A stretch of 64,000 nucleotides of DNA, from the NCBI GenBank assembly GCA_934655755.1, contig CAKUHA010000002.1:248001-312000 (forward strand), written 5' to 3'. Below the pieces are notes generated by a model, which was given only the letters and a program-made list of their open reading frames with translations, made no database searches and was not told where the DNA came from. Position 1 is the first letter of the stretch. Every line of letters starts with the position of its first letter. Both the position numbers and the translations under genes were made by a program. Shown here one piece after another: positions 13,109 to 26,368 of this stretch. Source of the stretch: an uncultured Collinsella sp. (lineage in GTDB: Bacteria; Actinomycetota; Coriobacteriia; Coriobacteriales; Coriobacteriaceae).

Positions 13109-13231
13109 GGCGCGCTTCGTTACATTCCTCACTGGTGCCGGCAAAAAATGGGGATAGAGTAGGACAAACGCGTCGAATACGAACGGCGGGGGAGAGCGGG
13201 CAGGGTGCCTGCGCGGGAGAGGTTGCCGTCC

Positions 13232-16200
13232 ATGCTGGAGCTCAAAGGAATTTGCAAAAGGTACACTACGCAGTCGTTTACGCAGGTGGCGCTCGACAAC
13301 GTAAGCCTGTCTTTTCGCGATAACGAGTTCGTGGCCATTCTGGGTCCCTCGGGCTCGGGTAAAACTACGATGCTCAACGTTATTGGCGGACTCGACCACT
13401 TTGACTCGGGTGATCTGCTCATCGACGGCATTTCGACCAAGGACTTTCGCGATCGCGATTGGGATGCCTATCGCAACAACCGCATCGGCTTTGTGTTCCA
13501 GAGCTATAACCTCATTCCGCATCAGACTATTTTGGAAAACGTGGAGCTGGCGCTTACGCTCACGGGCGTGGGTCATGCCGAGCGCCGCCAGCGTGCGCGC
13601 GAGGCGTTGGAGAAAGTCGGCCTGGGCGAGCACATTAACAAGCGCCCGAGCCAGCTATCGGGCGGACAGATGCAGCGCGTGGCTATTGCCCGTGCCCTGA
13701 TCAACGATCCCGAGATTGTGCTGGCTGACGAGCCGACCGGTGCTTTGGATTCAACGACATCCGTACAGGTCATGGATCTGCTCAAGGACGTTGCGCGCGA
13801 CCGTCTGGTCATCATGGTCACGCACAATCCTGAGTTGGCGTACCAGTACGCCACGCGCATCGTCAACTTGGCGGACGGCAAGATCACCGACGATTCCGAC
13901 CCCTTTGATGTAGTAAAGGCCGCACGTCGCGAGGCTAAGCCTACGCGCAAAACCTCGATGAGCTTTGTGACAGCGCTGGGGCTTTCTGCCCGAAACCTCA
14001 TGACCAAAAAGGGTCGCACGGCCATGACGGCCTTTGCGGGCTCGATTGGCATTATCGGTATCGCGGCGATTCTGGCGCTGTCCAACGGCGTAAACGACTA
14101 CATCAAAAAGGTCGAGGAGGATACGCTTTCGAGCTATCCGCTCACCATTTCCAAGCAGGATTACGACCTGTCGTCCATGATGGGCGGAGAGGGGGCCACG
14201 GACGTCGATGCGTCCAAGAACGAGGGTTCGTCCGACGACGGTGCCGACGGCAAGGCCCAGGGGACCGATAAGATCCCTGTGGTCACGGCCGTAAAGGATA
14301 TGTTTGCGAGCGTTAAGTCCAACGACATGACGAGCTTTAAGGCATGGCTCGATGCCGGTGGCGACGGCATCGATAAAGAGGTCAATGCCATTCAGTACAG
14401 CTACGGCGTGACGCCAGTTGTGTATCGCGCGGGCAAGGGAGACGAGAAGCCCGTGCGCCTGGTGCCCAATGCGATGACCGAGGCTATGAGCGGCGGCGCG
14501 AGCTCGGCGGCGACGGTGAGTATGGACTCTATGGGCACTTCGGTCTTTAACGAGATGATTGACGACCAGAGCTTGCTCGACAGTCAGTATGACGTGGTCG
14601 CTGGCCATTGGCCTACGTCTGCCAACGAGGCGGTGATGGTGCTTTCGAGCCGCGGCACGGTGGGCGACTACACGCTCTACAGCATTGGCGCGCTGGATAT
14701 CGATGAGCTCAACGACCTGGTCAACAGTGCCATGACGGCCGACGGCGAGGTCAAAACGCCGCAGGCCACTGCCGACTTTACGTACGAGGACGCGCTGTCA
14801 ACGACGTTTAAGGTGCTGTCGCCGGTCGATGCGTATCGCAAAAACGAAGAGACCGGCATGTGGACTGACATGTCTGGCGACGCCGACTTTATGACGGCCA
14901 AGGTTGCCGACGGCATTGACGTGCGTATTGTGGGCGTGGTGCGACCTAACGAGACGGCCAATGCGAGTGCATTGTCTCCGGGCATTGCCTATACGCATGC
15001 ACTGACTCGCCAGCTTATGGAGCGTGCCGCCGATTCGCAGATTGTGCAAGAGCAACTTGCCCATCCCGAGACGGATGTCTTTACGGGCAAGTCTTTCGAT
15101 GAACTGCAGGGCGAGGCAAAACAGGGCGTGGATCTGGGCAGCATGTTCAGTGTGGACGAGGCGGCGCTCAAGAGCGCGTTCTCGTTTGATACGTCTGCAC
15201 TCTCGGGTGCGGCTGGCGGTATGGACTTGTCGGGTATCGACTTATCCGGGCTGGACATTGACCTTTCGGGCGTTGGTAAGGACATCGACTTCAGCGACAT
15301 CATGGCCAAAGCGCCAACCCCAGATTTCTCGGGCATCTTTGACGGTCTGGAACTCACACCCGAGCAAATGCAGCAGGTGGGAACACTAGCCAACCAGCTG
15401 TTTGAGGGCTTTATGCAGTCCGATCAGTTTAAGGCCCTGACGCCCGAGGACCTTAAGGACGCATCGAAGCTCGCCTCCGCGTTCTCGGCATATCTCGAAA
15501 ACGATACCGCGGCGCAGCAGTGCTTGGCCCAGCTCAAGGCGCTGGGTGGCGACGCTCTTGCCGAGCGCCTGCAGCAAGCCATGACCGATTACGTGCAAAA
15601 GCAGCTGGCTCCTTACTTGCAGCAGGCTATGGACCAGGTAATGAAGACAATTAGCGACCAGATCGCGACGACCGTGTCGTCACAGCTCAAAGCGGGCGCG
15701 GCGGGACTCATGGCCCAGATGGCCACTCAGATGTCTTCGAGCTTCGCCAACTTGGCAAGCGCCATGCGTGTGGACGCCAGCGCCTTTGCCAATGCCATTC
15801 ACTTCAACATGGATGCCGAGGACCTGAGCTCGCTCATGATGAGCTATGCCAAGGCGTCGCAGCTCACCTACGACAACAACCTGACCACGTTGGGTTACGC
15901 CGATGAGGCCGACCCCATCTCGGTCAAAATCTTCCCGCGCGACTTTGAGGCCAAGGAACGCGTGCTCGACCATATCGATGCGTACAACGAGCAGGTTAAG
16001 GCTGCCGGGCACGATGAACAGGCCATCTCGTATACCGACTACATGGGCATCATCATGGGCTCGGTGACCGATATCGTAAACACTATCAGCTTGGTGCTCA
16101 TCGCGTTCGTGAGCATCAGCCTGGTCGTGAGCTCCATCATGATCGGTATCATCACCTACATCAGCGTGCTGGAGCGCAAAAAGGAGATCGGCATCCTGCG

Positions 16201-16486
16201 CGCGATTGGTGCATCGAAGCGCAACGTGGCAAACGTGTTCAATGCCGAGACCTTTATCGAAGGTCTTATCGCTGGTGTTTTTGCCATCGTTGTCGTGGTG
16301 CTCGTGAGCTTCCCGGTCAATGCTTGGGCTCTTGCGACCAAGCAAGTACCCAACCTGATGAGCCTTCCAGTGCAAGATGCACTGGTGCTCATCGCGATCT
16401 CGGTGGTGCTGACGGTCGTCGCCGGCCTGCTGCCAGCCCGCAGCGCATCCAAGAAAGACCCCGTGGAGGCCCTGCGCTCGGAATAA
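13232..16486 (+). CDS. ABC transporter ATPase-permease fusion, MacB/FtsX type
   Basis: A 1084-residue fusion. Residues 1-235 are an ABC ATPase (Walker A GPSGSGKTT at 38-46, signature 'LSGGQMQRVAIARAL', Walker B 'IVLADEPTGALD', H-loop 'MVTHN'). A first membrane helix sits near 275-295, then a very large extracytoplasmic domain of about 640 residues, then the three-helix FtsX/MacB_PCD core in the last 160 residues ('ERKKEIGILRAIGASKRNV'). The outer domain is Ala/Gln-rich, probably partly coiled coil, and contains a short Asp-Leu-Ser-Gly repeat around residues 665-690. The ATG at 13232 is preferred for its upstream GGAGAGG; a GTG at 13205 is possible. Family members export peptides or drive envelope machinery. 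The substrate is unknown. Confidence 0.9.
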   Translation: MLELKGICKRYTTQSFTQVALDNVSLSFRDNEFVAILGPSGSGKTTMLNVIGGLDHFDSGDLLIDGISTKDFRDRDWDAYRNNRIGFVFQSYNLIPHQTILENVELALTLTGVGHAERRQRAREALEKVGLGEHINKRPSQLSGGQMQRVAIARALINDPEIVLADEPTGALDSTTSVQVMDLLKDVARDRLVIMVTHNPELAYQYATRIVNLADGKITDDSDPFDVVKAARREAKPTRKTSMSFVTALGLSARNLMTKKGRTAMTAFAGSIGIIGIAAILALSNGVNDYIKKVEEDTLSSYPLTISKQDYDLSSMMGGEGATDVDASKNEGSSDDGADGKAQGTDKIPVVTAVKDMFASVKSNDMTSFKAWLDAGGDGIDKEVNAIQYSYGVTPVVYRAGKGDEKPVRLVPNAMTEAMSGGASSAATVSMDSMGTSVFNEMIDDQSLLDSQYDVVAGHWPTSANEAVMVLSSRGTVGDYTLYSIGALDIDELNDLVNSAMTADGEVKTPQATADFTYEDALSTTFKVLSPVDAYRKNEETGMWTDMSGDADFMTAKVADGIDVRIVGVVRPNETANASALSPGIAYTHALTRQLMERAADSQIVQEQLAHPETDVFTGKSFDELQGEAKQGVDLGSMFSVDEAALKSAFSFDTSALSGAAGGMDLSGIDLSGLDIDLSGVGKDIDFSDIMAKAPTPDFSGIFDGLELTPEQMQQVGTLANQLFEGFMQSDQFKALTPEDLKDASKLASAFSAYLENDTAAQQCLAQLKALGGDALAERLQQAMTDYVQKQLAPYLQQAMDQVMKTISDQIATTVSSQLKAGAAGLMAQMATQMSSSFANLASAMRVDASAFANAIHFNMDAEDLSSLMMSYAKASQLTYDNNLTTLGYADEADPISVKIFPRDFEAKERVLDHIDAYNEQVKAAGHDEQAISYTDYMGIIMGSVTDIVNTISLVLIAFVSISLVVSSIMIGIITYISVLERKKEIGILRAIGASKRNVANVFNAETFIEGLIAGVFAIVVVVLVSFPVNAWALATKQVPNLMSLPVQDALVLIAISVVLTVVAGLLPARSASKKDPVEALRSE

Positions 16487-17920: not shown

Positions 17921-18874
17921 ATGTATTTATCGCTGGCCCCTATGGAGGGGATTACCGGGCATGTGTTCCGTCGCGTGCATGCGGAGTGCTTCGGTGCGCT
18001 CGATTGTTATTACACGCCGTTTTTGCCGCCGCCACGGGTGGGCAACCGCTTTGGCGGTAAGGCGTTTAAAGAGGTCGATCCCGCCAATAACCAGGGGCTT
18101 AACGTGGTGCCTCAGCTGATGTCCAAAAACGCGGACGAGTTTGTGTGGGCGGCGCAGGTGTTCGCCGACATGGGTTACCGCGAGGTCAATCTCAACCTTG
18201 GCTGCCCCTCGGGCACGGTTGTCGCCAAGGGGAAGGGTTCGGGCTTTCTGCGCAACTTGGATGAGCTCGAGGTGTTCTTGAGCGACGTGTGCGAGCGCTC
18301 GCCATTGCCGGTGTCGGTCAAGACCAGGCTGGGACTGGAGAGCGACGATGAGTACGAGCGCGTGCTCGACCTCTATTGCCGCATGCCGCTGGCAGAGCTG
18401 ATCGTGCATCCGCGCGTGCAAAAGGACCGCTATACGGGCTCGCCGCGCAAAGAGTTTTACGGTGAGACGCTGGAGCGGGCGCCGTTCCCGGTGGCCTATA
18501 ACGGCGACATCTTTGATCTTGAGGACATGGATACGCTGGTGGAGGCCTATCCCGGGACGCGCCACGTAATGTTGGGGCGCGGCTTACTTGCGAACCCTGC
18601 GCTGGCTCGCATGGTTACCGGCGGTCCCGCTGCCACGGCAGCTGAACTGCAGCGCTTCCACGACATGTTGTTTGCGGCGTATGCAGAAGAGATTGGCGGC
18701 AACGCGGTCTTTCGCATGAAGGAGTGGTGGTTCTACGCCAAGTGCGCCTTCGCCGATCCCGCTACCGTTCACAAGATCGTGCGCAAGACCAAAAAGGTCG
18801 ACGAATACCGCGCCGCCGTCGACCGCGTCTTTCGCGAGCAACCGCTCGCGCCCACAGCCCGCTTTTGCGGCTAA
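17921..18874 (+). CDS. dus: tRNA-dihydrouridine synthase
   Basis: A 317-residue FMN enzyme that reduces uridine to dihydrouridine in the tRNA D-loop. The TIM barrel begins 'LSLAPMEGITGHVFRR'. The catalytic Cys lies in 'VNLNLGCPSGTV', followed by the 'KTRLG' strand and the flavin phosphate site 'VMLGRGLLANP' near residue 220. I favour the ATG at 17921 because GAGAG then sits about 9 bases upstream; ATG 17915 would leave 3. It is monocistronic. The assignment to Dus is firm; which Dus subfamily (hence which uridine) is not. Confidence 0.92.
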   Translation: MYLSLAPMEGITGHVFRRVHAECFGALDCYYTPFLPPPRVGNRFGGKAFKEVDPANNQGLNVVPQLMSKNADEFVWAAQVFADMGYREVNLNLGCPSGTVVAKGKGSGFLRNLDELEVFLSDVCERSPLPVSVKTRLGLESDDEYERVLDLYCRMPLAELIVHPRVQKDRYTGSPRKEFYGETLERAPFPVAYNGDIFDLEDMDTLVEAYPGTRHVMLGRGLLANPALARMVTGGPAATAAELQRFHDMLFAAYAEEIGGNAVFRMKEWWFYAKCAFADPATVHKIVRKTKKVDEYRAAVDRVFREQPLAPTARFCG

Positions 18875-18884
18875 CTAGTCATCG

Positions 18885-19769
18885 CTATCTGACGGCCTGG
18901 ACGGCAAGTGCTTCTATTACGCGCTCGGCACCGGCGTCGATCAGAATGCTGCGATTGGCGATTTCTGTCGGAGCGACTGCCTCGCCAAGGTTGACGCATG
19001 CATACATGGCGCGCTCGTTTTTGGCTGTCATCTGCCAAAACGGATACTTGATGATGACGGGCGTGTTGCCGCCTACGCCGAGTTCCAAGAACAGAACGCG
19101 CATGTTGTTGTGGCGGCGCAGAAAATCCTGGTAGCGATCGGCGGCAGCGTACCACCCCTTGTCCTGGACAAACGTATCGTCGGAGCGCAAGTTCATCGTA
19201 AGCGGGGCGCCACAGTGGGGGCAGTGGGGCACGAATGCAGATGGAATTCGCAGATTCCGCTGGTCGGCGACCATATGGCGTACGAGCCCTTCGTTGTCCC
19301 ATGTCTCCTGGCAGCAGGGCTTGCTGCACTGGAACAGGCCGTAGTCTCCTTGCGTATAAAAGAGCCGCTGCTTGTCAAAGCCGGCGCGCTGGAAACAATG
19401 GTCCACATTCGTGGTCAGCACAAAGTAGTCGCGCCCGCGCACTATGCTCAAGAGCTGTTCGTAGAGCGGCGTCGGTACGGGGTCATATCGGTTGCACATG
19501 ATGTAGCGGCTCCAAAACGCCCAGTACTCCTCGAGCGAATCATAGGGATAGAAACCGCCGGAATACATATCGGTAAAGCCGTAGCGTGCAGCGAAGTCAC
19601 CAAAGAGCTTCTCGAAACGCTTGCCCGAATAGGTGTATCCGGCGGCGGTCGAGAGCCCTGCTCCGGCACCGATTACCACGGCGTCAGATGCATCGAGTGC
19701 GACTCGGAGCTTATCGATTTGTTTGGAGAAGGCTGCGGTAGATTGCCTCGTCAGACGCGAGAAATACAT
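18885..19769 (-). CDS. SirTM-type (class M) sirtuin, probable protein ADP-ribosyltransferase
   Basis: A 294-residue Sir2-fold protein. NAD-binding motif GAGAGLS is at residues 34-40, and a class-M-like 'RFEKLFGDFAARYGFTDMYSGGFYP' region spans about 51-75. TTNVD is at 119-123. The catalytic His of deacetylating sirtuins is replaced by Gln140 (FYTQGDYG). Structural zinc Cys lie in 'FQCSKPCC' and 'CPHCG'. This matches the known SirTM group, which ADP-ribosylates lipoylated GcvH-like carriers in some pathogens. The gene starts inside the 3' end of the macrodomain gene (59-bp overlap), so the two are translated together. The usual GcvH-L and LplA2 partner genes are not adjacent. The AAGGTGATC upstream supports the start. 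Confidence 0.85.
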   Translation of the reverse strand: MYFSRLTRQSTAAFSKQIDKLRVALDASDAVVIGAGAGLSTAAGYTYSGKRFEKLFGDFAARYGFTDMYSGGFYPYDSLEEYWAFWSRYIMCNRYDPVPTPLYEQLLSIVRGRDYFVLTTNVDHCFQRAGFDKQRLFYTQGDYGLFQCSKPCCQETWDNEGLVRHMVADQRNLRIPSAFVPHCPHCGAPLTMNLRSDDTFVQDKGWYAAADRYQDFLRRHNNMRVLFLELGVGGNTPVIIKYPFWQMTAKNERAMYACVNLGEAVAPTEIANRSILIDAGAERVIEALAVQAVR

Positions 19770-20496
19770 TGAAGATCACCTTAAGGTTGGGGTCGTTATG
19801 GTCTAGATGATGACGAACGGTATCGATGGCCACGCGCGCGGCGGCATCTTGCGGATAACCAAACACACCCGTCGAGATGCAGCAGAATGCAAGCGTGCCG
19901 AGTCCTCGGCGTGTCGCTTCTTCCAGGCAGCTGGTGTAGCAACGGCGTAGCAGCAATTCCTCGCGCGGGCCAGGCTTATGGCTGGGCACGATGGGGCCGA
20001 CGGTGTGGAAAACGTAGCTGCTGGGCAGGTTGAACGCCGGTGTGACCTTGACACGCGCCGTTGGTTCCTCGTGCCCCTGTTCGTCCATGAGGTTGGCGCA
20101 CGCCAAACGCAGCTGCATGCCGGCGTAGGTGTGGATGGCGTTGTCGATGCAGCTATGCCCTGGCACAAAGCAGCCGAGCATTTGGCTGTTGGCTGCATTG
20201 ACGATGGCATCGGTCTTAAGCAGCGTAATGTCGCCGCGCCAGATGGCAACGCGATCGCGGTAGGGGAGCGTGCTGGCATCGGTCGCTCCGCCGCGCTCAA
20301 GAAGGCGTTGCTGCAAGTAGGTGTCTTGTATGTCGAGCGTCTCGGCCGCAAGCGCCTCGGGCGGGCGTACGTTCATGAGGGCTCGAAGCAAATCGCGCTG
20401 CTCGCTGGCTCCGGCAGGTACAGCAATGCTGCGCCCGTCTGGTCGCTCATCGAGCAATGCCTTGATAAGCCAAACACGGCGCTCTGCCTGATTCAT
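19711..20496 (-). CDS. Zinc-type macrodomain protein, probable protein-ADP-ribose hydrolase
   Basis: A 261-residue macrodomain protein. An N-terminal helical region of about 80 residues precedes the macro fold, with ADP-ribose loop 'DAIVNAANSQMLGCF' at about 96-110. A Cys109/His114/Cys116 cluster (GCFVPGHSCIDNAIH) is typical of the zinc-dependent macrodomains found next to SirTM. The second loop is 'ISTGVFGYP'. The ATG at 20496 is chosen because AGGAGG lies 7 bases upstream. It should remove the ADP-ribose that the sirtuin encoded by the overlapping downstream gene adds. The gene pair is a known reversible-modification module. Confidence 0.88.
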   Translation of the reverse strand: MNQAERRVWLIKALLDERPDGRSIAVPAGASEQRDLLRALMNVRPPEALAAETLDIQDTYLQQRLLERGGATDASTLPYRDRVAIWRGDITLLKTDAIVNAANSQMLGCFVPGHSCIDNAIHTYAGMQLRLACANLMDEQGHEEPTARVKVTPAFNLPSSYVFHTVGPIVPSHKPGPREELLLRRCYTSCLEEATRRGLGTLAFCCISTGVFGYPQDAAARVAIDTVRHHLDHNDPNLKVIFNVFLASDEAIYRSLLQTNR

Positions 20497-20575
20497 GGCC
20501 GACCTCCTGTTCGATTGAGATGGTTTCATTCGACAGTAGTGTGCGGCCTAACTCGTTTCTTCAAAAGAAGGCACA

Positions 20576-20614
20576 AAAAGGTAAGCGCCGTGGAGCGATA
20601 TGCCCCACGGCGCT
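20576..20614 (-). terminator. Terminator after the HxlR gene
   Basis: A 10-bp stem (AGCGCCGTGG at 20584-20593, CCACGGCGCT at 20605-20614). Read on the minus strand, a T run follows (from 20580 downwards). It ends HxlR transcription. Confidence 0.75.
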
Positions 20615-20637
20615 CAATTTGCAGAAGCCCGCCGCTG

Positions 20638-20970
20638 TTAGGAGTTTCGCACGAGCTGCTGATAGTCGGTACCCCATTCCACAAGGGAATCGATGATGGG
20701 CATAAGGCTGTGGCCCAGCTCGCTGAGTGCGTATTCGGTGCGGATGGGTGTCTCGGGGATGACGGTGCGCGTGATGAGGCCCGCGGCATCCATTTCCTTA
20801 AGGTTGGACGAGAGCACCTTTTGGCTAATGCCGGGGATAGCGCGATGCAGCGCGTTGAAGCCCATGGGATGGTCTATGAGCTGTTGGATGATATAGATCT
20901 TCCACTTGTTGCCAAAGAGTTGAAAACACGTGGCAACAGGGCAGGGAGGCAGTTCTTCTTTGGTAAGCAT
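20638..20970 (-). CDS. HxlR-family transcriptional regulator
   Basis: A 110-residue winged-helix regulator. It shows the hallmarks of the family: 'CPVATCFQLFGNKWKIYIIQQL' at the N-terminus with Cys14 and Cys19, the recognition region 'RAIPGISQKVLSSNLKEMDAAGLI', then the 'YALSELGHSLMPI' helix. HxlR proteins often sense electrophiles or oxidants through an N-terminal Cys. The gene is divergent from the Cys-rich peptide operon, and the intergenic region contains a perfect HxlR-like palindrome (21034-21047). The ribosome-binding site GAGGAG fits. It probably regulates the RiPP operon; this is inferred from position. Confidence 0.9.
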   Translation of the reverse strand: MLTKEELPPCPVATCFQLFGNKWKIYIIQQLIDHPMGFNALHRAIPGISQKVLSSNLKEMDAAGLITRTVIPETPIRTEYALSELGHSLMPIIDSLVEWGTDYQQLVRNS

Positions 20971-21033
20971 GGAGACTCCTCAATCGTGTGGACAGCTTTC
21001 ATTATCGCAGCCGCTGTCGTTTGCGGCTACTAC

Positions 21034-21047
21034 TTACCTTTTGGTAA
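21034..21047. promoter_or_regulatory. Candidate HxlR operator
   Basis: The perfect palindrome TTACCTTTTGGTAA sits between the divergent hxlR and Cys-rich-peptide genes. It resembles known HxlR/QorR-type sites (TTAC-N4-6-GTAA). Confidence 0.6.
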
Positions 21048-21079
21048 CTGGATAATAGATTGGTGCCTTCTTTTGGTCG

Positions 21080-21108
21080 TTGCGCGCTTTTTGCATGATG
21101 CATATAGA
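21080..21108 (+). promoter_or_regulatory. Candidate promoter of the Cys-rich peptide operon
   Basis: TTGCGC (21080-21085), a 17-base spacer and TATAGA (21103-21108) lie 61 bases before the peptide's ATG and downstream of the palindromic operator. Confidence 0.4.
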
Positions 21109-21169
21109 CGCAAAGAGCGTCAAAAACTGGATGGCTTCGCCCGGCCATCCTCGACCGAAAGGAAATACC

Positions 21170-21403
21170 ATGTCCGAGAATCTCGAGAACGTCGCCGCTT
21201 TCGCCTCCTGCGGTACTGCCGATCCTGCGCCCGCTTGCGGCTCCGCCGACCCCAAGGCCGCTCCCGCTTGCGGCTCCGCCGACCCCAAGGCCGCTCCTGC
21301 CTGCGGCTCTGCTGACCCGGCTGCTGCCCCTGCCTGCGGCTCCGCTGATCCGGCTGCTGCTCCTGCCTGCGGCACCGCTTGCGGCGCTGCCGACGCTCAG
21401 TAA
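21170..21403 (+). CDS. ACGX-repeat Cys-rich RiPP precursor peptide
   Basis: A 77-residue peptide with a 13-residue leader-like start (MSENLENVAAFAS) and then a repeat of about 11 residues of the form ACGSADPxAAP. The seven Cys are at 14, 23, 34, 45, 56, 67 and 71. Six of them sit in CxxxD units (C14-D18, C23-D27, C34-D38, C45-D49, C56-D60, C71-D75); the exception is CGTAC at 67-71. The ATG at 21170 has AAAGGA upstream. The next genes encode a PPOX/ferredoxin fusion and a radical SAM/SPASM enzyme, so this matches the named but poorly characterised ACGX-repeat peptide systems. CxxxD is also the motif that some radical SAM ranthipeptide enzymes cross-link through Cys to Asp. There is no visible protease or exporter next to it. 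Confidence 0.85.
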   Translation: MSENLENVAAFASCGTADPAPACGSADPKAAPACGSADPKAAPACGSADPAAAPACGSADPAAAPACGTACGAADAQ

Positions 21404-21427
21404 GCAATCGCTAAGAAGGGACTCGTA

Positions 21428-22048
21428 ATGGATGCTCAGACTTGCCTCAAAAAGATGCAGCTTGCCGGGACGCTCTCCCTGGCAACCGTGGACGAGAGTG
21501 GCGCGCCGCAAATTCGCTGCGTAAGCGCCGTCCATTACGAGCCCCGTGCTATCTACTTTCTCACGGCACGTGGCAAGGAGATGGCCCGTCAGCTTATGGC
21601 CGACGGGCGTGTCCAAACGCTCGTCCACACGCGATTTAACGAGATGATCCGCATGTCCGGCGTTGCCACCCCCGTTTCGGATTCCGAGCAAGTTCACTGG
21701 CGCGACGTGATTTACGCCGAGCAGCCGTATCTTGCTAACGTTTATCCCGGTGATACGCGCGAGATCAACATCATCTTTAAGGTTGAGAACATAGTGCTCG
21801 ACTACTTTAACCTGGGAGTTCATCCCATCGAGCGCGCGGTCTTTACCTTGGACGAGAGCATGGCACCTGCGCCCGCCAAGGGCTTCTGCATCGATGCCGA
21901 TGCGTGTATCGGTTGCGGCGCCTGCCTTGAGCACTGCCCGCAGAAGTGCATCGAGCCGGGAGACTCATATCGCATAGAGCCCGAGCACTGCCTGCATTGC
22001 GGTGCCTGTGTCGAGAATTGCCCCGTCGGCGCCGTTGCGCGCCTGTAG
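21428..22048 (+). CDS. PPOX-fold/2x4Fe-4S ferredoxin fusion in RiPP cluster
   Basis: A 206-residue protein. Residues 1-140 look like a pyridoxamine-phosphate-oxidase (split-barrel flavin) domain ('GTLSLATVDESGAPQIRCVSAVHYE'), and residues 148-206 are a two-cluster ferredoxin (CIGCGACLEHC, then CLHCGACVENC). It lies between the precursor and the radical SAM gene, 24 bp after the precursor stop. It may supply electrons from a flavin to the radical SAM enzyme or reduce the peptide thiols; this is inference. The ribosome-binding site AAGGG precedes the ATG. Confidence 0.85.
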   Translation: MDAQTCLKKMQLAGTLSLATVDESGAPQIRCVSAVHYEPRAIYFLTARGKEMARQLMADGRVQTLVHTRFNEMIRMSGVATPVSDSEQVHWRDVIYAEQPYLANVYPGDTREINIIFKVENIVLDYFNLGVHPIERAVFTLDESMAPAPAKGFCIDADACIGCGACLEHCPQKCIEPGDSYRIEPEHCLHCGACVENCPVGAVARL

Positions 22049-22094
22049 CCCAAATACCGTCATCAGCCTCAACATCGACCAAGGGAGTCCCACG

Positions 22095-23141
22095 ATGCAA
22101 AAGCCTGCGTTTGCCTTCCAATGGCATATTACGGATGAATGCGATCAGCGCTGCAAACATTGCTATATCTTTGCCAACGGTGCCTGCGCCGGTTTTAAGC
22201 GCATGCCGTGGGAGCAAATGGTCCAGGTCGTCGATCAGGCCCAGGCGCTTTGCGAGCGTATCGGTCGTCAGCCGTACTTTTACGTTACGGGCGGCGACCC
22301 TATTCTTCATCCCGATTTTTGGCACCTGGCCGAGCTTTTGCACGAGCGCGGTTTTATGTGGTGCGTGATGGGCAATCCGTTCCATCTGACCGATGAGGTC
22401 TGCGCCCGCATGAAAGAGCTGGGGTGTCGCAAGTACCAGCTCTCGCTCGACGGACTCGAGAAGACGCACGACTACTTCCGCAAGCCTGGTTCGTTTGCCG
22501 AGACCCTGCGTGCGATCGGATGTCTTAAGCGCGCGGGTATCTGGGTTGCCGTCATGAACACGGTTTCGAGCATGAATGCTGCCGAGTTGCCGCAGCTCAT
22601 CGATCTGGTGGCAAGCCTCGAGGTCGACGTGTTCGCCTTTGGTCGGTACTGCCCCACGTCGGGCCAAAAGCGTGACGAGTTCCATTTGGAACCGCTGGAG
22701 TATCGCGATGTGCTGCTGGCCGCGCAGGATCGCATGGAGTTCCATCAGGCGGCCGGCTGCAAAACGTTCTTCCAGCTCAAGGACCATCTGTGGACGCTGC
22801 TTTTGTGGGAGCAGGGTAAGTTCACCATTCCTGAGGATGCTAAGCCCGGCATGATCTATGACGGCTGCCACTGCGGTACGGGACACATGACGGTGCTGCC
22901 TACGGGCGATGTCTATGCATGTCGCCGCATGGAGAGCAAGGTGGGCAACGTTGCCGAAAACTCGCTGGAGGAGCTCTTCTTCTCTCCACAAATGGAAGCC
23001 AAACGCGATTTTAAGAAGTTCAAGAAATGCTCTAAATGTGAGCTCTTTGGCTGGTGCCGCGGCTGCCCCGCGGTGACCTATGGCTACACGGGCGATATGT
23101 ACGACGCCGACCCCCAGTGCTGGAAAGAGATTGAGGAATAG
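22095..23141 (+). CDS. Radical SAM/SPASM enzyme, ACGX-peptide maturase
   Basis: A 348-residue enzyme. The radical SAM motif CxxxCxxC is at Cys16, Cys20 and Cys23 (DECDQRCKHCYIF). A 'YVTGGDPILHPDFW' loop and an SPASM domain follow, with Cys in 'CHCGTGHMTVLPTGDVYACRR' and 'CSKCELFGWCRGC', then a last Cys near the end. SPASM enzymes modify peptides, often forming thioether bonds. The genetic link to the Cys-rich repeat peptide makes that peptide the likely substrate. The ATG at 22095 has AAGGGAG 7 bases upstream. It is the last gene of the operon; a repeat block follows within 10 bp. Confidence 0.92.
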   Translation: MQKPAFAFQWHITDECDQRCKHCYIFANGACAGFKRMPWEQMVQVVDQAQALCERIGRQPYFYVTGGDPILHPDFWHLAELLHERGFMWCVMGNPFHLTDEVCARMKELGCRKYQLSLDGLEKTHDYFRKPGSFAETLRAIGCLKRAGIWVAVMNTVSSMNAAELPQLIDLVASLEVDVFAFGRYCPTSGQKRDEFHLEPLEYRDVLLAAQDRMEFHQAAGCKTFFQLKDHLWTLLLWEQGKFTIPEDAKPGMIYDGCHCGTGHMTVLPTGDVYACRRMESKVGNVAENSLEELFFSPQMEAKRDFKKFKKCSKCELFGWCRGCPAVTYGYTGDMYDADPQCWKEIEE

Positions 23142-23150
23142 GATTGTCGT

Positions 23151-23273
23151 CTAGTCATCGGGGAGGGGTCTTTAACGAGCAGTCATTTAAGAACGTTCCC
23201 AATGACTACCTAAAAAGTTGTACACCAGCATCCAAAGATGTCGAAAATGGTCGACTTTGGATGCTGGTGTACA
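23151..23273. repeat. Compound repeat block: TAGTCAT element plus long palindrome, copy 1
   Basis: A TAGTCAT...GGGGA...AATGACTA inverted element (23151-23209) is followed by a 19-bp perfect palindrome arm (TGTACACCAGCATCCAAAG at 23219-23237, reverse complement at 23255-23273) with an ATGTCGA/GTCGA loop. The same two elements occur in the same order at 24236-24333. The hairpin may also terminate the radical SAM transcript. Confidence 0.8.
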
Positions 23274-23300
23274 TGTTTTGGGCTGGCGGGGGAGTGGGGC

Positions 23301-23567
23301 CTAGGCAATCACTGCATCAAGTGTAATGAGTTCTCTGAGCCGCTCCGTGCGTGTTTGCCCATGGCGTTTGGCTTTTTCGTCAAACGCTTCAAGAACTGAC
23401 TCGCCCACACGTGCTGATAAAACGACGCTCGGCTCATCAGAGATTGGCGGCCTTCCCAGCTTGATAGTGCGACCTTTCGGCCATTCATCTTTTTCGTACG
23501 CCTCTGCGGCTTTCTCAAGCTCTCCAGGGGCAAATCCCATCATCTTTTCGAGCTGCTTAGCATCCAT
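23301..23567 (-). CDS. RHH-type antitoxin-like protein (orphan)
   Basis: An 88-residue protein. The last 45 residues look like a ribbon-helix-helix DNA-binding domain ('PSVVLSARVGESVLEAFDEKAKRHGQTRTERLRELI'). The N-terminus is a charged helical segment. The ATG at 23567 is chosen because AGGAGG lies 5 bases upstream. Such proteins commonly act as antitoxins, but no toxin gene is adjacent on either side; the gene is isolated between repeat blocks. It may be a stand-alone regulator or a remnant of a toxin-antitoxin pair. Confidence 0.7.
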   Translation of the reverse strand: MDAKQLEKMMGFAPGELEKAAEAYEKDEWPKGRTIKLGRPPISDEPSVVLSARVGESVLEAFDEKAKRHGQTRTERLRELITLDAVIA

Positions 23568-23831
23568 TGTGCCTCCTATCGATTGGCATAATGTCGAGCG
23601 CTGGTTCGTGGTCTTTCTTTTTGTATACAGTTTCGTAGACAAAAATACAAGCAGATTATCGGGCCAATTACTTGTCTTGACTGGACTTTTCGATAGGTAA
23701 TGAGCATCGATAGCTCTTTGCTTTGCAGCTTGGAATTTGAACGTTCGTTGAACTTCCGAAGAGGGCGCGATTTAAAACTATCGAGATTCTGACTAAGGGC
23801 CTTTACTGGTCTTCGATAGTGAGATCAACTT
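23568..23831. other. Gene-free stretch before the hairpins
   Basis: About 260 bases, AT-richer than its surroundings. I see no credible gene here, only the likely promoter region of the RHH gene on the minus strand. Confidence 0.4.
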
Positions 23832-23858
23832 AATTCGCGACACAGTGTGTCGCGAATT
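23832..23858. repeat. 12-bp perfect hairpin
   Basis: AATTCGCGACAC and GTGTCGCGAATT are separated by 3 bases. A TAGCCATTGGGGACGTATT element related to the TAGTCAT family follows at about 23862. Confidence 0.7.
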
Positions 23859-23952
23859 GAAGTAGCCATTGGGGACGTATTAACGGCCAGTCATTTAAGA
23901 ACGTCAAAATGCTGGATTTGTCATTTAGAGCCATTCTCCAACGACTATTTTG

Positions 23953-24196
23953 GAGGGCCGTGTTCAAAAAAGGGCAAATATGAGTACTGTTGCCATTATG
24001 GTTACATTTATATTGCTCAAAAAAGAGGTCACTGATGAGATTTAGTCCCATTAGAAGTATCTTTTATTGAACATATGGGGAGAAATACCGCCCTCTGTGG
24101 ACGAGTGAACCGTTGAATAGTCCTTGAATTGATCAAAATCGCTGCTACTAAACAGGTAGCAGTACTCATATTTGCCATTTTTTGAACACGGCCCTC
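23953..24196. mobile_element. MITE-like element with ~42-bp inverted ends
   Basis: The left end (23953-23993) and right end (24155-24196) are inverted copies with only a few mismatches, starting GAGGGCCGTGTTC and running through CAAATATGAGTACTG. The 161-bp interior is AT-rich, unlike the host, and has only a short ORF on each strand (ATG AGT ACT..., about 21 and 46-49 codons), probably not genes. It looks like a non-autonomous transposable element or a folded RNA. The family is not recognised. Confidence 0.6.
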
Positions 24197-24235
24197 TCAG
24201 AAACTTTTCCGGAGGCGTCAGGCTGTCTCAAGCGG

Positions 24236-24333
24236 CTAGTCATTTTAGGACGTCCCCAATGACTAGGCTGCAAAAAGCTGTACACCAGCATCCAAAGATG
24301 TCGAAATATGTCGACTTTGGATGCTGGTGTACA
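24236..24333. repeat. Compound repeat block, copy 2
   Basis: CTAGTCATT/AATGACTAG (24236-24267) around a GACGTCCCC centre, then the same 55-bp palindrome as at 23219 (24279-24333) with a two-base difference in the loop. Together with copy 1 it brackets the RHH gene and the MITE-like element as direct repeats. Confidence 0.8.
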
Positions 24334-24365
24334 TGTTTGGGTCGTTAGCTTTGGCGTTAGACGTG

Positions 24366-24611
24366 CTAGAGCAGATTCTCTTGCGCCCATGCGATGATGT
24401 CGCTTGACTCGTAGAGCGGTTTGCCGTCAATGAACAGGCAGGGAACCTGGCGCTTTCCGCCGACGGCGATGAGCGTCTGCTCGGCATCGGGGTCGGTCGA
24501 GATGTTGCGCTCGGGGATGGTGACGCCGTTATCCGTCAGGAAGCGCTTCACCTTAATGCAATACGGGCATCCGGTCATAACGTACAGCACGAGCTCGTGA
24601 TTAGTAGCCAT
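24366..24611 (-). CDS. Glutaredoxin
   Basis: An 81-residue GrxC-type protein with active site CPYC in 'YVMTGCPYCIKVKRFL', the cis-Pro in 'RQVPCLFIDGKPL', and the C-terminal 'SSDIIAWAQENLL'. The ATG at 24611 is used because GGAGACC lies just upstream; the longer form would start in non-coding sequence. It reduces cytosolic disulfides. The C-terminus has a decayed copy at 17786. The compound repeat block lies 30 bp downstream. Confidence 0.92.
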   Translation of the reverse strand: MATNHELVLYVMTGCPYCIKVKRFLTDNGVTIPERNISTDPDAEQTLIAVGGKRQVPCLFIDGKPLYESSDIIAWAQENLL

Positions 24612-24662
24612 AGGTCTCCAATCGGTTGGTATTTTGATTGAGATACCCAAAGCCGCTGCAAT

Positions 24663-25490
24663 CTAAGCACGAGTCAGCGACGACTCGATGGCCTGGACCA
24701 GGAATGCTGTAGCTCCATCTCCGCAAGGCTTGTCGTAGTAGTCTACAAAGCGCTGGTCGGCAAGATAGCCGCGTGCGAGGCCCCGGTACGGTTCATCTTG
24801 GGGTTCGCTGCCCCAGTTGAGGCCAATCCAGCGACGGTGCATTACGACAAGCTTGCGAGCCTCGCTGCCTTCCGGTTCGCCATCGCCCATGGCAATCGAG
24901 AGCTGGCCCAAAATGGCACGTTCAAGCTCCTTCATGTCGTTCCATGTCTGAGGGTCCATGTCCAGCAGCGCGTCGTTTGCCGCATCGACGGCTTCATCGC
25001 CATAGTGAGCTCGAGCTTCGGCACCGTAGCGCTCCTCGTTTTCCTGAACGGTGCGCCAGCGCTCCAGTTGCGGCAGGACGGCGCCCATGAGTGAGACGGC
25101 TTCGTCGAGCGACATGCCGGTGTTTTGCGCCAGGCGTGGGGCACAATCCTCGATCATTGCCTCCATGGTGGTCTCGTAGGTGTACTTGCCGTGGTCGTAG
25201 CACCATTTGCAGTAATGATCGGTCGTGGCGCCCGTAGCGTCGGTGCCGCAGTCATCGGGCGTGAGCAGCATGCCGCAGCTCTCGCAGTAGTGTTCGGGCA
25301 TTTCGAGCAGGTGAGACAGTGGCTCTCCGGTTACGGCGGCAATGAGCTTCATCATATCGATGCCCGGCGTGACCTCGCCGCGCTCCCAGCGGCTGACGGC
25401 TTGGCGCGTTACATAGAGCTTGGCGGCGAGCTGCTCTTGGGTGAGATTGTTGGCGCGCCGGACAGCGATGAGTTTTTCTGCAAAGGCCAT
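24663..25490 (-). CDS. XRE-type regulator with zinc ribbon and TipAS domain
   Basis: A 275-residue regulator with three parts. Residues 1-60 are an XRE helix-turn-helix ('LTQEQLAAKLYVTRQAVSRWERG'). Residues 68-101 form a zinc ribbon (CESCGMLL...CKWC). Residues about 105-272 match the TipAS drug-binding domain (ligand-induced helices, 'YRGLARGYLADQRFVDYYDKP'). TipA-type regulators normally pair TipAS with a MerR DNA-binding domain; here the DNA-binding part is XRE. It probably senses a hydrophobic peptide or drug. The gene is 52 bp upstream of the glutaredoxin on the same strand. Confidence 0.85.
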   Translation of the reverse strand: MAFAEKLIAVRRANNLTQEQLAAKLYVTRQAVSRWERGEVTPGIDMMKLIAAVTGEPLSHLLEMPEHYCESCGMLLTPDDCGTDATGATTDHYCKWCYDHGKYTYETTMEAMIEDCAPRLAQNTGMSLDEAVSLMGAVLPQLERWRTVQENEERYGAEARAHYGDEAVDAANDALLDMDPQTWNDMKELERAILGQLSIAMGDGEPEGSEARKLVVMHRRWIGLNWGSEPQDEPYRGLARGYLADQRFVDYYDKPCGDGATAFLVQAIESSLTRA

Positions 25491-25630
25491 GACGGCTCCT
25501 CTCTGCTGGTTGATGACTTAAGCATACGCGGCGGTAGGCACCCTTCCAAGCAACCGTTGGTTGCACGACGGGCGCCGCGGTGGGGGATTGCGCGCAGCGC
25601 CTCGTGCGCCCATGCCGTACAATGACCGGC

Positions 25631-26368
25631 ATGGAACCTATTGCACACATACATACCGACCTGCCGCAGAAGTTCGGCATTCCGCGCAACAGCTTTTTGG
25701 CACCCCATCTACAGGGCCGTATTGTCTTTGAGCCGGAGTTTGCCTCTAACGCCGCGGTTGCAGGGCTCGAATCCTTCTCGCACTTATGGCTGCTTTGGCG
25801 TTTTGAAAATGGAACGCCCGGCGGCACGGCCAAAGACATTGCTGCCGATGCCAAAATACAGAACAAAGCCGGTACCAATGCCAAGTGGTCAAAGACCGTG
25901 CGTCCGCCACGCCTGGGCGGCGCCGAGCGCGTGGGCGTCTTTGCCACGCGTAGTCCGTTTCGCCCCAATCCTATCGGCCTCACCTGCGTAAAGCTTGACC
26001 GTGTTGAGCTCACCGATAACGGTCCCATCATCTATGTGTTGGGCGCCGACTTGCGCGACGGCACGCCCATCTATGACATCAAGCCCTACATTCCGTTTGC
26101 GGATTGTCATTCGGACGCGACGGGCGGCTGGATCGAGGACAACCCGTGGCAAGAGCTCGACGTCGAGTTTACACAAGCGCTGCAAGACAAGGTCCCGCCC
26201 ACAAAGTTGCCCGGCCTGATCGAGATTCTTCGCCAAGATCCGCGCCGTGCTGGAAGCAAGCGCGAGCCCAATCGCGTCTACCACTTGGCCTACGCCGGGC
26301 TCGATATCTCGTTTACGGTCGACGGGACGCAGCTTTTCGTGACGGACGTCAGCAAGGCGCAAAACTAG
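25631..26368 (+). CDS. trmO: tRNA m6t6A37 methyltransferase TrmO
   Basis: A 245-residue TsaA/TrmO protein that methylates the threonylcarbamoyl group at A37 in certain tRNAs. The SAM-binding beta-barrel motif is 'VGVFATRSPFRPNPIGLTCVKL', with 'DGTPIYDIKPYIPFADC' after it; the C-terminal extension contains the second conserved domain. I picked the ATG at 25631 ('MEPIAHIHTD'); an ATG at 25622 adds three residues. No strong Shine-Dalgarno is visible. Apparently monocistronic. Confidence 0.9.
   Translation: MEPIAHIHTDLPQKFGIPRNSFLAPHLQGRIVFEPEFASNAAVAGLESFSHLWLLWRFENGTPGGTAKDIAADAKIQNKAGTNAKWSKTVRPPRLGGAERVGVFATRSPFRPNPIGLTCVKLDRVELTDNGPIIYVLGADLRDGTPIYDIKPYIPFADCHSDATGGWIEDNPWQELDVEFTQALQDKVPPTKLPGLIEILRQDPRRAGSKREPNRVYHLAYAGLDISFTVDGTQLFVTDVSKAQN

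Follow-up and report, generated by a model that had tools for sequence, protein, structure and literature searches.

A cysteine-repeat RiPP-type locus of Collinsella and its genomic link to a class M sirtuin and a zinc macrodomain

The window analysed here is a stretch of 64,000 nucleotides (64 kb) from an uncultured Collinsella sp. (contig CAKUHA010000002.1), in which we studied a gene cluster for a short cysteine-repeat peptide of the ACGX type and its radical SAM/SPASM maturase, read as a ribosomally synthesized and post-translationally modified peptide (RiPP) system. We found that this cassette, here and in many relatives, is accompanied by genes for a class M sirtuin (SirTM) and a zinc macrodomain protein (Zn-Macro), and a functional tie between them is very probably real. 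The locus includes the following features:

18885..19769, minus strand: class M sirtuin, SirTM-like, activity predicted; 294 amino acids (aa); nearest PDB entry S. pyogenes SirTM 5a3a, E 1.6e-71
19711..20529, minus strand: zinc macrodomain (Zn-Macro); 272 aa; NF003163 at 324.8 bits (cut-off 272)
20582..20616, minus strand: terminator-like hairpin at the boundary of the HxlR and macrodomain genes; 15 pairs, 10 of them GC, with a T-rich tail; consensus match alone
20638..20970, minus strand: HxlR-family regulator; 110 aa; PF01638 at 94.5 bits
21034..21047, no strand: likely HxlR operator TTAC-N6-GTAA amid divergent promoters; phylogenetic footprint in 22 of 41
21170..21403, plus strand: ACGX-type repeat precursor; 77 aa, leader MSENLENVAAFAS, 7 Cys; relatives have homologous peptides in this position
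21225..21379, plus strand: 33-bp tandem repeat coding the 11-residue units, from DNA repeat analysis
21428..22048, plus strand: PPOX (PNPOx-like) domain fused to a 2x[4Fe-4S] ferredoxin; 206 aa; PF01243 at 43 bits, PF00037 in two stretches
22095..23141, plus strand: radical SAM/SPASM maturase of the ACGX system; 348 aa; TIGR04340 at 534.2 bits (cut-off 400)

The coordinates of the HxlR, peptide, PPOX-ferredoxin and maturase genes, re-derived from the DNA, agree with those of the initial annotation, which had however overlooked the SirTM and Zn-Macro neighbours. The latter two genes overlap by 59 bp and, as in C. aerofaciens, lie beyond the HxlR gene on the strand opposite to the peptide gene, with no adjoining nitroreductase gene. 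Terminator-like sites in the region are no commoner than in its shuffles, and a scan of positions 18000-26000 against Rfam gave zero matches at the gathering score.

At E <= 0.01, the PDB matches of the sirtuin are confined to the S. pyogenes enzyme (SpySirTM) and the macrodomain-sirtuin fusion 8rsn. It carries QG in place of the catalytic HG, a substitution described as the class M hallmark (PMC4518038), and N121, Q140 and R195 are invariant among 17 aligned sequences. QG is found in all 31 sirtuins of ACGX loci, a count in which, as in the zinc-loop and neighbour counts given below, matches with an inner stop (the L062 sirtuin and the L036 macrodomain) are scored as present. With its QG motif, its closest similarity to SpySirTM and the linkage of its gene to a macrodomain gene, the protein is a class M sirtuin by sequence, of predicted activity. 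The macrodomain matches best 8rsi (E 1.3e-68), with further matches to the Zn-Macro entries 5kiv, 8rsl and 8rsm, and presents at C120/H125/C127 the Cx4HxC loop given as a Zn-Macro feature (PMC11490716); this loop is kept in 18 of the 19 loci with a macrodomain, L032 being without the last Cys. Elsewhere, two genomes (G061 and G717) have four SirTM-like matches each, three of them in tandem in G717, and five genomes of the same genus as G001 (G005, G007, G008, G010 and G019) carry two diverged SirTM-like genes in tandem (E ~1e-67) and no ACGX enzyme over the cut-off.

The three radical SAM and seven SPASM cysteines of the maturase are invariant in 14 aligned homologues, and the folds nearest to its AlphaFold2 model are anSME, CteB, ChlB, SkfB and SuiB. 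On this fold-level evidence the modelled enzyme has a SPASM peptide-maturase fold. It has no N-terminal extension of the size of a RiPP recognition element (RRE) domain. A literature search, most subscription papers being outside its reach, found no published chemistry for the TIGR04340 family.

The precursor has Cys at positions 14, 23, 34, 45, 56, 67 and 71. Asp stands four residues further on (+4) for six of the seven, which form ranthipeptide-like Cys-x3-Asp/Glu units, and Cys67 has Cys71 at +4. The count of seven Cys and the C-x3-D spacing of six, noted initially, are thus confirmed, while the description of five near-identical units of ~11 residues plus a terminal variant has to be adjusted: four units have 11 residues, the first has nine, and the end reads ACGTACGAADAQ. 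This spacing, stressed initially, is constrained across 63 distinct precursors, in which D, C or E stands exactly at +4 of 320 of 333 Cys (D 213, C 101, E 6; D and E together 219). At the other offsets from 1 to 12 Asp occurs in at most 8%, with the exception of +8 (32%, largely via C-x3-C-x3-D), and the distance from the acid to the next Cys ranges from 5 to 11. Gly directly follows 327 of the 333 Cys, giving CG in nearly every unit. The tally covers 84 peptides; the false candidates L040 and L079 are omitted, that of L077 is replaced, and L037, L059 and L230 are left out. In one peptide (L228, from G698), the units mostly have Glu for Asp at +4 (ACGAAE).

The Cys-rich gene, on whose presence in homologous clusters the initial annotation had made its reading depend, is mostly there: a CG-repeat peptide lies near the maturase in 87 of 98 locus entries (some loci being entered twice), and comparison with relatives supports the RiPP-like reading of precursor and maturase. 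A first pass had given candidates in 86 of the 98, of which L040, L077 and L079 were false; L077 has a genuine peptide, and L037, L059 and L230 (cut end) were added later. No CG-repeat peptide was found in G037 (L004/L227), L062, L079, L132-L134 and L234, and among the 11 negative entries L040, L073 and L233 start within ~160 bases of the maturase. The maturases of L079 and L132-L134 are remotely ACGX-like, with no ACGX peptide recognised; downstream of that of L079 there is a small CGGSPSGCGCGC peptide. Most leaders in relatives resemble MSExLxNVAAF or MALSNLxxW, and the number of Cys varies between the window (7) and the C. aerofaciens strains L031 (4) and L032 (8). Against the ACGX-repeat peptide model TIGR04341 the window peptide scores 10.9 bits (E 0.54) where the cut-off is 28, and for this reason we call it ACGX-type and not a member.

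HypR is an HxlR-family regulator whose CPV Cys senses hypochlorite or disulfide stress. Cys10 of the window regulator lies in a CPVAT motif and is conserved in all 41 aligned proteins. It corresponds to the CPV Cys of HypR/YybR (PDB 4a5m), so that the gene combines the HxlR domain with the conserved N-terminal Cys of the HypR/YodB-type redox regulators; it differs from them in its operator, TTAC-N5/6-GTAA, which is inferred here, and its redox sensing is a prediction from sequence. The supposed perfect palindrome at 21034-21047 (TTACC-TTTT-GGTAA) does have perfect 5-bp arms, but its centre is not palindromic. Of 41 related regions between HxlR and peptide genes, 22 contain TTAC-N5/6-GTAA (21 of 40 once the locus entered as both L003 and L032 is counted a single time), as against a mean of 0.57 and a maximum of 3 in 100 shuffles, and its recurrence is thus not due to chance. 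The exact motif is missing from 19 of the 41, including the near-identical strain L031. Both the alignment and the footprint omit L062 and L073, and both include the locus of L003 and L032 two times.

ACGX loci were gathered by the maturase, 50 from a scan of GTDB contigs (L031-L080) and four over the cut-off from related genomes (L001-L004; L003 is on the same contig as L032). By their record titles, the GTDB loci come from Collinsella, Eggerthellaceae, Ruminococcus/Oscillospiraceae, Lachnospiraceae and others, although names of metagenome-assembled genomes (MAGs) may be wrong. In the 54-locus count, which omits L003 and like the following one includes partial genes, HxlR is present in 42 (taking in a fragment, L062, and a distant gene, L073), a nitroreductase in 36, PPOX-ferredoxin in 33 (with broken or cut genes in L044, L061, L069 and L078), SirTM in 31 and the macrodomain in 19. 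When at least 4.9 kb is available downstream (36 loci), the corresponding figures are 30, 26, 25, 21 and 17. The grouping of HxlR, operator and redox partner proposed initially recurs in relatives, and the redox role suggested with it is plausible. A common order in the Bacillota loci is HxlR, then peptide - maturase - nitroreductase - PPOX-ferredoxin - macrodomain - SirTM, with same-strand gaps mostly under 60 bp, and in the Eggerthella MAG L033 it is peptide - PPOX-ferredoxin - maturase - nitroreductase - SirTM - macrodomain. Some loci (L036, L038, L054, L056 and L039, L040, L046; names assigned by eye) have extra genes in the downstream run, either a further ~310-aa protein or a quinone-oxidoreductase-like alcohol dehydrogenase.

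The link between the ACGX enzyme and SirTM is also evident at the level of whole genomes. In two class samples taken together, 27 genomes have a close ACGX enzyme; 25 of them also carry SirTM, against 130 of 660 others, and in 17 of the 27 the two lie within 5 kb of each other. In the 391 genomes of Clostridia (class of G059; thresholds E <= 1e-60 for SirTM and E <= 1e-70 for the ACGX enzyme), 66 have SirTM and 19 the ACGX enzyme, 16 of these being close (E < 1e-160). All 16 have SirTM, compared to 50 of the 375 others (Fisher 8e-14), and in 12 it is on the same strand, 1.3-3.6 kb from the maturase; G059, the survey centre, was picked for having the ACGX enzyme, which makes one of the 16 an ascertained case. 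In the 296 genomes of Coriobacteriia (class of G001; SirTM threshold E <= 1e-40, as for the nearest relatives), 11 have the ACGX enzyme and 89 SirTM, which is present in 9 of the 11 versus 80 of the 285 others (Fisher 5e-4), within 2.6 kb in five and at 6.9 kb in one further genome; both Fisher values overstate the case because genomes are not independent and kinship is ignored. Among the 58 nearest relatives, two of four ACGX genomes have SirTM (G018 and G050, both adjacent, but not G037 or G044) versus 14 of 54 others. In a tree of 83 sirtuins, which has some long branches and single placements that are unsure, 10 changes of the ACGX label are required, at least 7 of them imposed by well-supported branches, against 27 when shuffled. 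Together with the differing gene orders, this indicates that the association repeatedly arose, broke up or was restored. The tree omits sirtuins of <=240 aa, that of L062 (inner stop) and one of each identical pair. A GcvH-type gene lies beside SirTM in one of the 66 SirTM genomes of Clostridia (G446, not an ACGX genome); in this sample the lipoyl type is thus rarer than the ACGX type (1 versus 12 of 66).

Several observations, however, weigh against a tight coupling or against the mechanism outlined below. SirTM is absent downstream in 15 of the 46 loci in which it was either seen or the 4.9 kb downstream are covered, and in 13 of the loci with SirTM no macrodomain is seen within the covered stretch. 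In the window itself, the terminator-like hairpin and the position of the macrodomain and SirTM genes on the other strand mean that co-expression with the peptide is not evident. SirTM was not found in two ACGX genomes of Coriobacteriia (G037 and G572), in one of the nearest relatives (G044), nor in three genomes with remote ACGX-like enzymes (E ~1e-100; L132-L134). Among 19 further ACGX genomes, chosen mainly for having no SirTM beside the maturase (L049, included, has one), it is present somewhere in 12 and was not found in 7; many of the genomes without it are incomplete. The acceptor at +4 is missing in some units (three in L067 and three in L066), and membership of the maturase in the PapB family is ruled out by 57.4 bits against model NF047865, whose cut-off is 340. 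The genome of L079 is likewise without SirTM.

Two known systems help to interpret the locus, beside the ACGX system (TIGR04340/TIGR04341) itself, which it resembles in a maturase over the curated cut-off and an adjoining Cys-Gly repeat peptide and from which it departs in the score of that peptide and in the SirTM/Zn-Macro link, not found in the literature searched. The first is PapA/PapB (freyrasin, a CX3D ranthipeptide): PapB is reported to join Cys to Asp or Glu in CX3D, tolerating Glu for Asp, and can use flavin/NADPH electrons (PMC9413430, PMC10470005). The ACGX system shares with it the repeated C-x3-D units, with Glu in some members, and a SPASM maturase, but its enzyme falls outside the PapB model and has no RRE-sized N-terminal extension, and its peptides have CG in nearly every unit. 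The second is the extended SirTM operon of Staphylococcus and Streptococcus (GcvH-L, LplA2, Zn-Macro, SirTM, OYE, LLM), with two flavin oxidoreductases and a tie to oxidative stress. There, GcvH-L is the protein on which the SirTM/Zn-Macro pair acts; Asp27 is the most likely site, and lipoylation beforehand greatly stimulates the reaction. Zn-Macros can also remove ADP-ribose linked to Cys (PMC4518038, PMC11490716). A 2024 paper names GcvH-L as the sole known SirTM target and describes those of other SirTM/Zn-Macro systems as still to be identified (PMC11490716). Common to both operons are the SirTM/Zn-Macro pair, flavin oxidoreductases and a candidate target that bears sulfur and a conserved Asp, whereas the ACGX locus has a RiPP and a radical SAM enzyme in place of the lipoyl carrier and its ligase, and is under HxlR control. 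By analogy, it may follow the same operon logic: a sulfur-bearing carrier with regularly spaced Cys and Asp, its modifying enzyme, flavin/iron-sulfur redox proteins, and a writer/eraser pair. An operon of the GcvH-L type as such was rejected, no GcvH match lying beside SirTM in the 16 ACGX genomes (of 66 searched) nor among the scanned window neighbours.

On these grounds we tentatively favour a RiPP module that responds to redox conditions or electrophiles, probably acts inside the cell and is coupled to ADP-ribosylation in a reversible form, a reading that is plausible but falls somewhat short of probable. HxlR would repress from TTAC-N6-GTAA and be released upon oxidation or alkylation of Cys10. 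The 13-residue leader would guide the 77-aa peptide to the SPASM maturase, which lacks room for an N-terminal RRE domain, while PPOX-ferredoxin, and in relatives also the flavin nitroreductase, would feed it electrons. Judging from the spacing, the maturase would couple each Cys to the residue at +4, mainly through thioethers from Cys to the Asp beta-carbon as in PapB, and C-x3-C-x3-D units would be nested or keep a free thiol; cross-linking of Cys to an acid by this enzyme is, on balance, the likelier outcome. A beta-carbon thioether would leave the Asp carboxylate free for ADP-ribosylation. SirTM would then put ADP-ribose on a product of the operon, most likely an Asp (or Cys) of the peptide, and Zn-Macro would remove it. 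In this way the peptide would buffer redox state or metals through its sulfur, with ADP-ribosylation as the switch. That the ACGX peptide is a SirTM target is, by analogy with GcvH-L, conceivable although we consider it rather unlikely. The same caution applies to the idea that the Cys-Asp thioether might license ADP-ribosylation at the neighbouring Asp or Cys, as lipoylation does in GcvH-L, with reversal by Zn-Macro, and so provide a tunable multi-site redox buffer whose capacity would be set by repeat number.

Alternatively, SirTM and Zn-Macro may act on a house-keeping protein or a different product of the operon (PPOX-ferredoxin, nitroreductase or HxlR), while the ACGX peptide would be an effector working in parallel within a shared stress regulon and would never be ADP-ribosylated; we regard this as a serious possibility, if a minority one. 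It is favoured by the 49 SirTM regions that have no ACGX maturase next to them (L136-L184): HxlR accompanies SirTM in 20 and PPOX-ferredoxin, within 1.5 kb upstream, in 11, so that SirTM does not need the peptide for its role and may have another protein as its target. The wider theme is therefore HxlR, a redox protein, Zn-Macro and SirTM, with the ACGX peptide, maturase and nitroreductase as one elaboration. The 49 regions come from 48 of 54 SirTM genomes of Clostridia without an adjacent ACGX maturase (G393 contributing two); four of the 48 (G059, G357, G377 and G393) are ACGX genomes with SirTM elsewhere, and the weaker or partial matches of G109, G226, G327, G343, G356 and G421 were not taken in. 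In the same direction points L160 (G258), which looks like a decaying version of the ACGX operon: it retains HxlR, PPOX-ferredoxin, macrodomain and SirTM with a truncated ACGX peptide, and is without maturase and nitroreductase. On the other hand, SirTM occurs in ACGX genomes far over background (25 of 27), and in the S. aureus operon GcvH-L alone was modified among the purified operon proteins tested (PMC4518038).

The metallothioneins and the copper-chelating RiPPs called bufferins (PMC12452194) suggest another role, that of a thiol- or metal-buffering peptide whose Cys are largely free or chelating; the maturase would then make a different Cys- or carbon-centred modification, and Asp at +4 would be a metal ligand or helix partner. 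Repeat number varies freely between strains, as it would in a buffer, Cys itself occupies +4 of 101 of the 333 Cys, and the second-best model of the maturase is TIGR04082 (thio(seleno)oxazole, 183 bits). However, the near-fixed acid at +4 fits the known cross-link geometry, and no metal transporter or metalloregulator was recognised by eye among the recurring neighbour clusters. HxlR proteins are moreover not known as typical metal sensors, and we hold this explanation, too, to be possible but doubtful. Finally, an exported ranthipeptide signal (as proposed for other ranthipeptides) or antimicrobial, with exporter and protease elsewhere in the genome, is improbable, and the antimicrobial version was rejected: Gly-Gly does precede the first CG unit in L001, L002, L034 and L226, but not in the window leader, the linked genes encode cytosolic redox and ADP-ribosylation enzymes, and no exporter or protease recurs among the neighbour clusters of 55 ACGX rows, read by eye (ABC-transporter-like open reading frames occur in 5 of the 55 at scattered positions), nor does either adjoin the cluster among the scanned window neighbours, as originally stated, the nearest transporter there being an ABC/FtsX protein at 13205-16486.

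Downstream of the cluster, two copies of a long hairpin repeat (GTACACCAGCATCCAAAG...CTTTGGATGCTGGTGTAC) lie 1.06 kb apart at 23220-23244 and 24280-24304, with flanks to ~23280 and ~24335 (0 expected by chance). They flank a CopG-like ribbon-helix-helix gene, and possibly represent a mobile miniature element or a terminator repeat. Beyond them are, both on the minus strand, a glutaredoxin-like gene (24366-24650) and a regulator gene with helix-turn-helix, zinc ribbon and TipAS domain (24663-25490).

The maturase family is already known in silico, and its coupling to SirTM/Zn-Macro appears unreported in the literature searched: no paper was found that combines SirTM with radical SAM, none among the matches listed ties SirTM to a RiPP cluster by title or start of abstract, and none was found on Collinsella radical SAM RiPPs, in each case with most subscription papers outside reach. 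The locus gives context for an uncharacterised RiPP family and offers a concrete candidate target set for a SirTM/Zn-Macro system in gut Clostridia and Coriobacteriia. If the proposed mechanism is true, it would join RiPP chemistry and SirTM ADP-ribosylation, two fields found unconnected in our literature searches, and the ACGX peptide would be the first RiPP known to undergo reversible ADP-ribosylation and, after GcvH-L, the second kind of substrate known for SirTM.

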